From Isosphaeraceae bacterium (GTDB lineage: Bacteria > Planctomycetota > Planctomycetia > Isosphaerales > Isosphaeraceae), in NCBI GenBank assembly GCA_025356475.1, contig JANXSX010000187.1:1-35050 (forward strand): a stretch of 35,050 nucleotides of DNA, given 5' to 3'. The notes under the pieces are model-generated. The model saw only the letters and a list, made by a program, of their open reading frames with translations, had not been told where the DNA came from and ran no database searches. Both the position numbers and the translations under genes were made by a program. Shown in pieces: positions 25,888 to 28,938 of the stretch (its first letter is position 1; every line of letters begins with the position of its first letter).

Positions 25888-26598
25888 TCACTGAACCTCA
25901 GTAACACCGACAAGTGATTTACCGCCTGGTAGTCGATACCCGAACCGATCCTCATCGCCGCGCTCAACTCGAGCTGAAGGCAAGATCCCAAGCTGCTGAA
26001 GTTCAATCACATGCTGTTCACGGTCGGCCAACTCGGGGAGGCCAGTCTCGGCGATCCCGCCTCCACGTTGAATTTTAGCTTGAAGGTCCATGACAGCCCG
26101 GAGGATTTGCTCGGGGCGAGGTGGGCAGCCGGGAATGTACAGGTCAACCGGAATGAATCGGTCGATCCCCTGGACTACGGCATAGGTGTCGAAGATCCCC
26201 CCCGTTGAGGCACATGCCCCCATGCTGATGCACCACTTGGGCTCCGGCATCTGCAACCAGATCCTCTGCAGCACTGGAAGCATCTTCATTGCAACCCGGC
26301 CTGCGACAATCATCAGGTCGCATTGGCGGGGACTGAATCGCATAACCTCAGCGCCAAAACGTGCGATATCAAACCGGCTGGCACCGACCGCCATAAGCTC
26401 GATTCCGCAGCAAGCGGTCGCGAAGGGCATCGGCCAGAGGCTGTTCTTGCGGCACCAATTCACGACCGCGTCGAGGCTGGTCAGGATGGTATTCTCAGGG
26501 ACCTCAACAGTTCCGGTGGGAACATTGGCGAGAGATGCCCTGGTCGTGATCTGGGCTGCGGTGGTCGGATAACCACCCTGGACAGGGTTCAGCGCCAC
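25888..26598 (-). CDS. nuoB: NADH-quinone oxidoreductase subunit B
   Basis: NuoB holds cluster N2, which donates electrons to quinone. The ligands are visible as [11 protein letters not shown] (adjacent cysteines), [12 protein letters not shown] and [13 protein letters not shown] 26598 is the likely start: AAAGGGG lies about 8 bases upstream, and the start overlaps the nuoA stop by 10 bases, suggesting coupled translation. This gives 236 aa. A longer reading to 26760 would lie entirely inside nuoA in another frame and is rejected. About 60 residues after the core ([10 protein letters not shown]...) form an extension that varies in the family. Confidence 0.95.
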
Positions 26599-27011
26599 TC
26601 GAAGACCCCTTTCTTCCACGCATAAGCAAAAGCGGCCGCCAAGGCAATCACGAAGATGAAAATCTCGATGAAGACCAGCGACCGAAACTCGGGCGGAATG
26701 CCAACCATGATCCGCTCGGGGACGGATGTACCAGAGGCTGTGGGCGATCCAAGGCTCCACTGCGCGACTGCGAATGGATACAGAAAAAGCAATTCAACAT
26801 CGAACAAGAGGAAGACGATCGCCACCAAGTGATAACGCACGTCGAACCGTTGGCGAGCGTCGCCGATCGGGTCCATGCCCGACTCATAAGGCATCTGCTT
26901 GACGTCATTTCGTTGATGCGGGCCGATGATGGCGCTCGCGCCGAGCATCCCAACCGCAGTCATGACGGCAACCAGAATGAACAAGAAGACGGGTGTCGAT
27001 TCGAGACCCAT
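26589..27011 (-). CDS. nuoA: NADH-quinone oxidoreductase subunit A
   Basis: The first gene of the complex I operon encodes a 140-aa three-helix membrane subunit. Typical segments are [25 protein letters not shown] in overlapping pieces (the loop near the quinone site), [19 protein letters not shown] with conserved acidic residues in the second helix, and a third helix ([23 protein letters not shown]). ATG 27011 has only a weak site (GGTGGAA) upstream. A loop of about 20 residues between helices 2 and 3 is longer than in E. coli. Confidence 0.96.
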
Positions 27012-27052
27012 GGGTGTTCCACCAAAGTGCAGTTACGACGCCGACTCGCAGT

Positions 27053-27070
27053 TTGTGAACAGTTTCACAA
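27053..27070. promoter_or_regulatory. CRP/FNR-type palindrome upstream of nuoA
   Basis: TTGTGAA-CAGT-TTCACAA is a perfect 7-bp inverted repeat and contains TGTGA-N6-TCACA, the exact consensus spacing of E. coli CRP. Its near edge is 41 bases before the nuoA ATG. It is AT-richer than its surroundings. A CRP/FNR-family regulator is the natural candidate, but none is encoded in the window. Confidence 0.6.
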
Positions 27071-27128
27071 TGTATCGTAAAAAAATTCCCAACCTCGAGC
27101 AGAGGCCGGGTTCTTGATCGATGCACAG

Positions 27129-27156
27129 ATCATACGTACTTGCGAGAGTGTCGCAA
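27129..27156 (-). promoter_or_regulatory. Candidate nuo operon promoter
   Basis: On the minus strand TTGCGA (27156-27151) and TATGAT (27134-27129) are 16 bp apart; they match 4 of 6 and 5 of 6 sigma70 consensus bases. The predicted transcript start is near 27122, giving a leader of about 110 bases that contains the CRP/FNR-type palindrome. Confidence 0.5.
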
Positions 27157-27157
27157 G
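27139..27157. promoter_or_regulatory. Inverted repeat overlapping the -35 of the nuo promoter
   Basis: CTTGCGA-GAGTG-TCGCAAG is a perfect 7-bp inverted repeat with a 5-base centre. It covers the proposed -35 hexamer and much of the spacer, so it could be an operator. As a hairpin it has no T-run after it on either strand, which argues against a terminator. Confidence 0.4.
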
Positions 27158-27248: not shown

Positions 27249-28118
27249 TTACCGGGGGAGTTCTCTAGGTGGTGACGGACGCGGTGCGGTGGGCTTCTCC
27301 ACAGAATCGCTGGCGAGTGGGGCGGTCAACAAGGTCGAGGGCTGGGAAGCCGGTGAACCCGTGCGGCGTCCGGCTCGTCGGGCGTTCTCGGGATTGGAAC
27401 GGTCGATGGGCTCGGGTTCTGGGGCCGGGCGATCCTCGTTCGGCCTGACGGTGGTCGGTTTGGGAGCAGGCACGATGGTTCGACGACCGGCGGAGCCGCC
27501 GATTGGACCGAGCGGGTCAAGGAGCGAGGATGGACCTCTCGCCGTTGACGACTTGGCCTTGGCAGCGGGGGTGGCCGTTTTCGAGGTCGGCTTCTTGTCA
27601 AAAGAGGTATCGCGCCCCGCCTTGGCGATTTGGGAGTTAACCTCTTTCAGCATCTGAGCCCGCTTCTTGGGGTCTTTTTCTCGCGTGGCTTCGAGGTAGC
27701 GTTGGTAGCGTTCTTGCTGTCCTTCGTAGTAGGACTTTTCGACTCGCTCGTTGGGTGAATCAAGTCGACCCGCAGCGCGATCGAGTTGGCGATAAGCTTG
27801 GGTGTAGGGAATGCCGATGCCGTTACCGCGACGAGCCGCGTTGCTATCGTCCGAGAAGCGATCGGGATTCATGGCCCGGTCGAACTGGTTGTATCGCGAG
27901 CCGACGCCGCGTTCGGCATCCATCTCGTTGCGGGCCGCGCCTGGAAGGGCGAAGTTGGACGGGGCAGAAGGATAGACAAATGGTTGGTAGGGGTTCGTGG
28001 CATTGCCGAACGGATCAAAGGCATTTCCTTGGGCGAACACCGACTGGCCCAGTCCCGCCAGTAATCCCAGCGAGACTACGAACATGTATCGTTGCCGAAT
28101 GGTCCCGTCAGGCCGCAT
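27249..28118 (-). CDS. Secreted Pro/Lys/Arg-rich protein of unknown function
   Basis: The 289-aa protein starts at ATG 28118, 6 bases after GGGAGG; another ATG at 28148 lacks such a site. A signal peptide is clear (QRYMFVVSLGLLAGLGQSVFAQG, likely cut after FAQ or FA). The mature part begins with an Asn/Pro/Phe-rich section (NAFDPFGNATNPYQPF). It continues through a charged helical section likely to be coiled (SYYEGQQERYQRYLEATREK, KKRAQMLKEVNSQ). It ends in about 120 disordered residues rich in Pro, Lys, Arg, Ser and Thr. No family is recognised. It probably acts in the periplasm or at the envelope. It lies downstream of the cupin-like gene on the same strand (112-bp gap) and 237 bp upstream of nuoA. 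Confidence 0.8.
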   Translation of the reverse strand: MRPDGTIRQRYMFVVSLGLLAGLGQSVFAQGNAFDPFGNATNPYQPFVYPSAPSNFALPGAARNEMDAERGVGSRYNQFDRAMNPDRFSDDSNAARRGNGIGIPYTQAYRQLDRAAGRLDSPNERVEKSYYEGQQERYQRYLEATREKDPKKRAQMLKEVNSQIAKAGRDTSFDKKPTSKTATPAAKAKSSTARGPSSLLDPLGPIGGSAGRRTIVPAPKPTTVRPNEDRPAPEPEPIDRSNPENARRAGRRTGSPASQPSTLLTAPLASDSVEKPTAPRPSPPRELPR

Positions 28119-28230
28119 CGCATGCCTCCCTTTCGCATCCGATTCCACTGGCCTAGATCGAAGGATCTGGGGAGTAGAAACCGTCGCAGAGCCACCATCC
28201 TATATCTTAGCACATCCTTTTGACTCGGTC

Positions 28231-28938
28231 CTAGTCCGGTCTCGACGATTCCTGAGGCCAGACCGGATAATCGGGCGAAGGAGGTTTGAGCAGGTGTTTC
28301 TGACGCAACCTGTACTCGTGTAAAAGTTCGGTAGGGATCGTAAGAACTCCCAAGCGGCCTTGACCGTGCAGTTGAAAGTCCTCTTCGGCGCCCAGGATGC
28401 ACAAGTTATCGACATTCAGGGCTTCGACCTCGGTTTCGCCGACTCGGGACAGATTGCAACCACCGGTGAGGACGAGCACGATCCGAATGTCCAGGCCAGC
28501 GGGCTCACGGTGATTCTGCCCAGGATTCAGGTCAAGGACTTGATACGTAAATCGATGCTCGCCGGTTCGCAAGGGGTCCTGAGCCTCCTCGGCTCCGATC
28601 TTCTCAAAGCCCCAAATCTGGATAAATCGCTCTCGGAAGTGGAACGGTGGAACCCCGTTGTGGGAGAGACAGAGCAAGTCGACTGGGGTCTCAACATCGA
28701 TCGCGACCGCTTGCGGAACGATGATCAAGTCTCCTCGGGTGACGACCACTACCCGCCGATCGGTACTTAGTCGGGTGGAGCTGAGGCAAACTGCGTAGAG
28801 TGTGCCGGCTGGTTCGTAGAGACGGGGTACGTCTTCTTCTCGCCAAAGGTCGAGGGCCGGTTCCCAGGTGCGGATTGAGGTTGAAGCTGTACTCCAACCC
28901 TCGGCGGATCCTCCCTTGAGTGGCAAGTGGGCGTACAT
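28231..28938 (-). CDS. Cupin-like protein, unknown function
   Basis: This 235-aa protein has a very strong ribosome site (GGAGGAGG, 7 bases before the ATG) and codon use like the neighbours. It has no signal peptide. Alternating short beta strands with Gly/Pro turns suggest one or two cupin barrels: RGDLIIVPQAVAIDVETPVDLLCLSHNG in the first half, and DIRIVLVLTGGCNLSRVG to DNLCILGAEEDFQLHGQGRLGVLTIP in the second. A complete metal-binding cupin motif (two His, Glu, His) is not evident; SHNGVPPFHFRERF is the only His-rich stretch. It may be a small-molecule sensor or a non-catalytic cupin. It is divergent from the HEAT-like gene (115 bp between starts). Confidence 0.75.
   Translation of the reverse strand: MYAHLPLKGGSAEGWSTASTSIRTWEPALDLWREEDVPRLYEPAGTLYAVCLSSTRLSTDRRVVVVTRGDLIIVPQAVAIDVETPVDLLCLSHNGVPPFHFRERFIQIWGFEKIGAEEAQDPLRTGEHRFTYQVLDLNPGQNHREPAGLDIRIVLVLTGGCNLSRVGETEVEALNVDNLCILGAEEDFQLHGQGRLGVLTIPTELLHEYRLRQKHLLKPPSPDYPVWPQESSRPD

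Follow-up and report, generated by a model that had tools for sequence, protein, structure and literature searches.

Which regulator would act on the complex I operon of this Isosphaeraceae bacterium, and how could it do so from a site lying between the promoter and the first gene? Throughout, the window is the whole stretch of 35,050 nucleotides that was analysed. On its minus strand a promoter, a hairpin with a run of seven T, and a palindrome are followed by nuoA, nuoB, nuoC and nuoD, in that order (nuoC was assigned by position and sequence, the other three genes by domain matches). The initial annotation had read this region as controlling the complex I operon, which the analysis bears out. 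The features discussed below, in the direction of transcription, are as follows.

27139..27157, no strand assigned: inverted repeat CTTGCGA-N5-TCGCAAG (the second dyad), which is no conserved operator; read on the minus strand, its 5' arm includes the -35 element
27151..27156, minus strand: putative -35 element of the nuo promoter, TTGCGA; a TTG-rich -35 is conserved in relatives
27129..27134, minus strand: putative -10 element of the nuo promoter, TATGAT; GTATGAT is conserved in relatives
27088..27110, minus strand: predicted terminator hairpin of the leader RNA, CCCGGCCTC-TGCTC-GAGGTTGGG (z = -3.8; none of 200 shuffles folds equally well)
27079..27085, minus strand: T7 tract of the predicted intrinsic terminator, downstream of the hairpin
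27053..27070, minus strand: predicted Rex operator (ROP), TTGTGAAACTGTTCACAA, 17 nt past the hairpin and equal to the published Rex consensus
26589..27011, minus strand: nuoA (PF00507; start at 27011), first gene of the complex I operon, downstream of the module

Two minus-strand ORFs located upstream of nuoA, at 27249-28148 and 28231-28938, gave no Pfam or NCBIfam match.

The palindrome TGTGA-N6-TCACA (27054-27069) contains zero mismatches and extends to TTGTGAA-N4-TTCACAA (27053-27070), agreeing with the Rex consensus at 14 of 14 positions. It is identical both to the consensus of Streptomyces avermitilis Rex, TTGTGAANNNNTTCACAA (PMC5355995), and to that of Staphylococcus aureus Rex, TTGTGAAW4TTCACAA (PMC2883068). 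Its CRP-like appearance is explained by the fact that the older S. aureus Rex consensus was TGTGA-N6-TCACA (PMC2883068). Taken by itself, this first dyad is not above chance, with a match of at most one mismatch found in 55 of 100 shuffles of the window; in the cross-genome comparison it stands far above chance, unlike the second dyad. When leaders were compared, the operator was seen to extend, with weaker flanks, to ACT-TTGTGA-N6-TCACAA-AGT. The genome encodes a single Rex, recognized by its PF06971 and PF02629 domains (the Rex DNA-binding winged helix and the Rossmann domain) and by the NCBIfam Rex models, and this protein matches a solved Rex structure, PDB 3ikv, with E = 7.6e-47.

Among the family genomes, 44 have a readable nuoA start, and in 40 of these the site lies 41-74 nt before that start; with G012, where it is found at -120, the total reaches 41/44. 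The exact 14-base palindrome is present in 32 of the 45 family genomes, once per genome and preceding nuoA wherever checked (the reversed pattern, used as the control for this count, occurred in one genome). Beyond the family but within the class, 36/36 Rex-positive versus 1/16 Rex-negative sampled genomes carry the site (Fisher p = 4e-12, ignoring kinship), where Rex-negative means not among 167 Rex-positive genomes, the Rex-negative genomes span five families, and family and class are delimited as in the genome collection searched. Two MAGs carry the site with no Rex match, which likely reflects MAG incompleteness, and G236 has a degenerate site and no Rex.

We thus arrive at the first part of the answer: the palindrome in front of the complex I genes is, with near certainty, an operator for the NADH sensor Rex, as predicted from its sequence and distribution. 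The initial annotation had been right that the palindrome is real and behaves as a true, if predicted, operator, exact in sequence and conserved across genomes, and had assigned it to the CRP/FNR family. The core TGTGA-N6-TCACA is indeed common to CRP and Rex sites. However, a profile search of this genome returned no HTH_Crp_2 domain, the site tracks the presence of rex, and a CRP-type HTH above the cut-off occurs in just 21 of the 45 family genomes, yet the palindrome is far more widespread among them. A stand-alone cNMP-domain frame of 181 aa is without an HTH by inspection. Unless this genome conceals a divergent CRP-like HTH, its content already contradicts a CRP/FNR identity, to which we give hardly any weight.

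The exact palindrome occurs only once in the 5.9-Mb genome. Of further strong Rex sites, the one candidate with a single mismatch (on contig C14) was set aside, as it falls within a long opposite-strand ORF with a protein kinase-like product, and two-mismatch matches were about as numerous as in the control. Rex autoregulation was also considered, but none of 30 rex loci in the family has a site of at least 12/14. A further nuoA, divergent in sequence, belongs to a second complex I cluster of the genome (G000:C53:11645; relatives L262-L267), and the Rex operator is absent before the nuoA of this cluster in this genome and in five relatives.

The promoter-like site is of the sigma-70 type, TTGCGA-16-TATGAT (27156-27129, minus strand), which would place the start of nuo transcription near 27122. 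In the leader set, -35-like words are enriched solely at -100 to -71 relative to the operator and -10-like words solely at -70 to -51 (41 seen versus ~8 expected); between -50 and +50 the -10-like words are not enriched. An extra promoter between the terminator and nuoA was therefore rejected, promoter-like words being enriched upstream of the hairpin only. The operator thus follows the probable start, and no promoter separates it from nuoA; this is the arrangement of a roadblock and is compatible with repression, as the initial annotation had suggested. The same annotation had proposed that a second inverted repeat overlapping the -35 provides another regulatory input. The dyad, the overlap and the promoter are all real, but the dyad is 14/14 in this genome alone and 8-11/14 in relatives, and simple arithmetic gives about two perfect dyads with 7-bp arms at fixed spacing per 35 kb. 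We ruled it out as an operator: it is at chance level, unconserved and merely overlaps a genuine -35, so that the notion of two inputs falls away and the promoter is what is conserved.

Between promoter and operator lies an element that escaped the initial annotation, a hairpin with a perfect 9-bp stem and, after it, T7 (27110-27079). It has the GC-rich stem and directly adjoining T-tract of an intrinsic terminator. At least five T within seven bases were found at -17 to -11 from the operator in 72 of 78 leaders, against a background of 0.9% at positions further upstream. Hairpins scoring at least 20 are present in 55% of leaders; the figure is 3.4% for dinucleotide shuffles and 1% for control stretches taken locally upstream. 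The sequences of the arms differ among relatives with pairing preserved: the 44 best stems are 100% paired and drop to 51% when arms are swapped between genomes (their arms were picked for pairing, and the dinucleotide-shuffle comparison is the unbiased one), and each stem position among these 44 shows several pair types (C-G, G-C, A-T, T-A, G-T), up to six. A terminator score of at least 18 was reached by 49/78 operator-bearing versus 3/18 operator-less leaders, and 10 of the 78 have no scored terminator. Taken as a prediction, the assignment of hairpin and T-tract to an intrinsic terminator is strongly supported.

The order promoter, intrinsic terminator, ROP, nuoA was found in 13 families. 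The distance from the end of the stem to the operator averages 16.7 nt with a standard deviation of 1.6 (outlier L133 excluded), and that from the -10 to the operator ranges over 44-68 nt with a standard deviation of 7.1. The three family genomes without the site make up one genus (g14), which has lost operator, T-tract and hairpin altogether and has kept the promoter and rex. In G012 and G198 the operator directly follows a -10-like element and there is no terminator; G207 resembles them, yet has a lower-score hairpin further upstream. From the operator positions in these three genomes it follows that the terminator tends to accompany operators situated well downstream of the start.

A different case is the Rex-negative genome G279 (L149), where a perfect dyad CCTTGCGG-N6-CCGCAAGG stands ~57 nt before nuoA, about where relatives have the operator, and the hairpin and T-tract are retained upstream of this alternative dyad. 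A different regulator may have adopted the device in that genome.

On the basis of these sequence comparisons, we propose, with a probability of roughly 0.6, that the region is an NADH-responsive switch in which a Rex roadblock would hold RNA polymerase on the leader terminator and so be coupled to termination. Transcription would start at the sigma-70-type promoter, ~50 nt upstream of the Rex operator, and the first RNA would fold into the intrinsic terminator, the T-tract of which ends ~10 nt before the operator. A polymerase at the end of the T-tract extends some 14-18 bp ahead. Because this reach would overlap an operator beginning ~10 nt ahead, Rex and polymerase could not easily occupy the DNA together; footprints of S. 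avermitilis Rex cover 23-29 nt (PMC5355995). At low NADH, Rex in its NAD+ form would sit on the operator, and a polymerase that has come to the last T would encroach on it, be held on the terminator and be released, leaving nuo off. Upon a rise in NADH, Rex would leave, as known Rex biology suggests, polymerase would cross the leaky terminator, and NADH-consuming complex I would be made. Most economically, Rex would either keep polymerase on the terminator for longer or bar its advance, and transcription would end. The polymerase is large enough that it might even run into Rex while the hairpin is still incomplete. Plain roadblocks have the known weakness of leaking and of depending on Mfd (PMC10310618, PMC4132739), which a terminator placed where polymerase stalls would do away with.

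A simpler scheme would have Rex act by plain roadblock or promoter-proximal repression, with the hairpin and T-tract insulating nuo or lowering its basal level and no mechanical link to Rex. Streptomyces Rex sites do act at promoters, or past the start in the case of wblE (PMC5355995), and the upstream ORF at 27249-28148 runs in the same direction as nuo. Such an insulator would, however, also terminate nuo's own transcripts, because the conserved promoter lies upstream of the hairpin; moreover, plain repression does not account for a terminator-operator distance far tighter than the promoter-operator distance, nor for the joint loss of operator and terminator in g14. We regard this scheme as unlikely, though the likeliest of the alternatives. 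The main doubt about our own reading is that polymerase is believed to move forward during intrinsic termination (PMC3913778), and so a block may hold the polymerase instead of releasing it: as long as NADH stays low, Rex would then keep the enzyme at the T-tract, unable either to elongate or to release its RNA, and once NADH rises the terminator would set how much passes. This accords with the forward-translocation model of termination (PMC3913778) and with the short distance from start to operator, as LacI work links such distances to clogging and lost polymerase cooperation (PMC4132739). Prolonged stalls are nevertheless expected to be cleared by Mfd (PMC10310618), and a poised polymerase appears improbable to us.

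Lastly, the hairpin could be a 5' stabilizer of the mRNA or a small RNA, placed near the operator for other reasons, and in some families it does begin almost at the putative RNA start. The T-tract in fixed register in 72/78 leaders, the unconserved sequence from start to hairpin and the lack of any Rfam match in the leader all speak against this, which we consider quite improbable. Release of a Rex-blocked polymerase at the terminator is therefore the reading that we prefer.

We scanned ~85,000 named genomes for T4-N6..14-ACTTTGTGA-N6-TCACAAAGT, and the scan yielded planctomycete nuoA leaders (many of these loci bear the label of the following gene, NuoB, but NuoA comes first) together with 16 planctomycete nqrA (Na+-NQR) leaders from Pirellulales, 'Planctomycetaceae' and Candidatus Laterigemmans baculatus. 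The identity of NqrA was confirmed with NCBIfam for three loci, and all 16 genomes with the nqrA module encode Rex. Judged by score, six nqrA leaders have strong hairpins, at 15-16 nt, and the remainder have weaker or longer-looped ones. Given these leaders, we lean towards a modular device used across the class at two unrelated NADH dehydrogenase operons, nuo and nqr, in which a hairpin and T-tract would be combined with the operator of a metabolite-sensing repressor 17 nt behind.

Outside the class, the extended operator ACTTTGTGA-N6-TCACAAAGT was observed in Verrucomicrobia (L178, L180, L183, L193, L195, L197, L207, L211, L224, L238, L243, L251, L253) before a gene of ~97 aa (MENQKTI...) that is small, conserved, DUF-like and apparently uncharacterised. 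The hairpin is lacking in 13/13 of the verrucomicrobial operators before the DUF-like gene, found with the same T4-plus-operator pattern, which argues that the search pattern by itself does not create a hairpin. Some Akkermansiaceae have the extended Rex operator before nuoB with no terminator. In Desulfovibrio, L191 (5050-5480) and L204 (7600-8000) have a Rex operator 17-18 nt after a hairpin and T-run, with a promoter-like sequence downstream of the Rex site, which in L191 precedes a TauE-like transporter ORF; we rejected these loci as the same arrangement on account of this promoter-like sequence.

Rex regulons have reportedly been studied by Ravcheev et al. in 2012. The S. avermitilis Rex regulon (nuoA1-N1, cydA1B1CD, atpI; PMC5355995) shares with the planctomycete system the operator consensus, the nuo target and the Rex family, but the nuoA1 footprint extends from -42 to -16, over the promoter, whereas the operator here would lie ~50 nt past the start and behind a terminator. 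S. aureus Rex recognizes the same 18-bp operator, at genes of fermentation and nitrate respiration; its sites co-localise with promoters and no terminator was described (PMC2883068). The roadblocks formed by LacI, PurR, GalR, CcpA and CodY (PMC10310618, PMC4132739) likewise halt polymerase by a repressor bound to DNA past the start, but release is attributed to Mfd, while the planctomycete leader has a conserved intrinsic terminator at the expected stall point. Attenuation by TRAP in the B. subtilis trp operon (PMC3913778) is likewise a regulated premature termination in the leader before the first gene, although TRAP binds leader RNA with competing folds and the candidate planctomycete regulator is predicted to bind DNA. 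H-NS filaments are likewise a DNA-bound protein aiding termination via polymerase pausing (PMC4337669), but they are linked to Rho-dependent sites and are no single-site metabolite switch. Rex control of nuo in Streptomyces and transcriptional roadblocks are known already. A search of the open literature, outside of which most subscription papers lie, found no description of a Rex operator behind an intrinsic terminator, nor of Rex or a Rex regulon in planctomycetes.

The module offers a natural, repeatedly conserved case for the question whether a DNA-bound repressor and an intrinsic terminator cooperate, and it bears on whether an obstacle in front of the enzyme favours or impedes release at such a terminator. 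With the spacing fixed at 17 nt, the question can be tested by simple insertions. For the planctomycetes themselves, the predicted operators would place NADH sensing by Rex on both of their ion-pumping NADH dehydrogenases, nuo and nqr.
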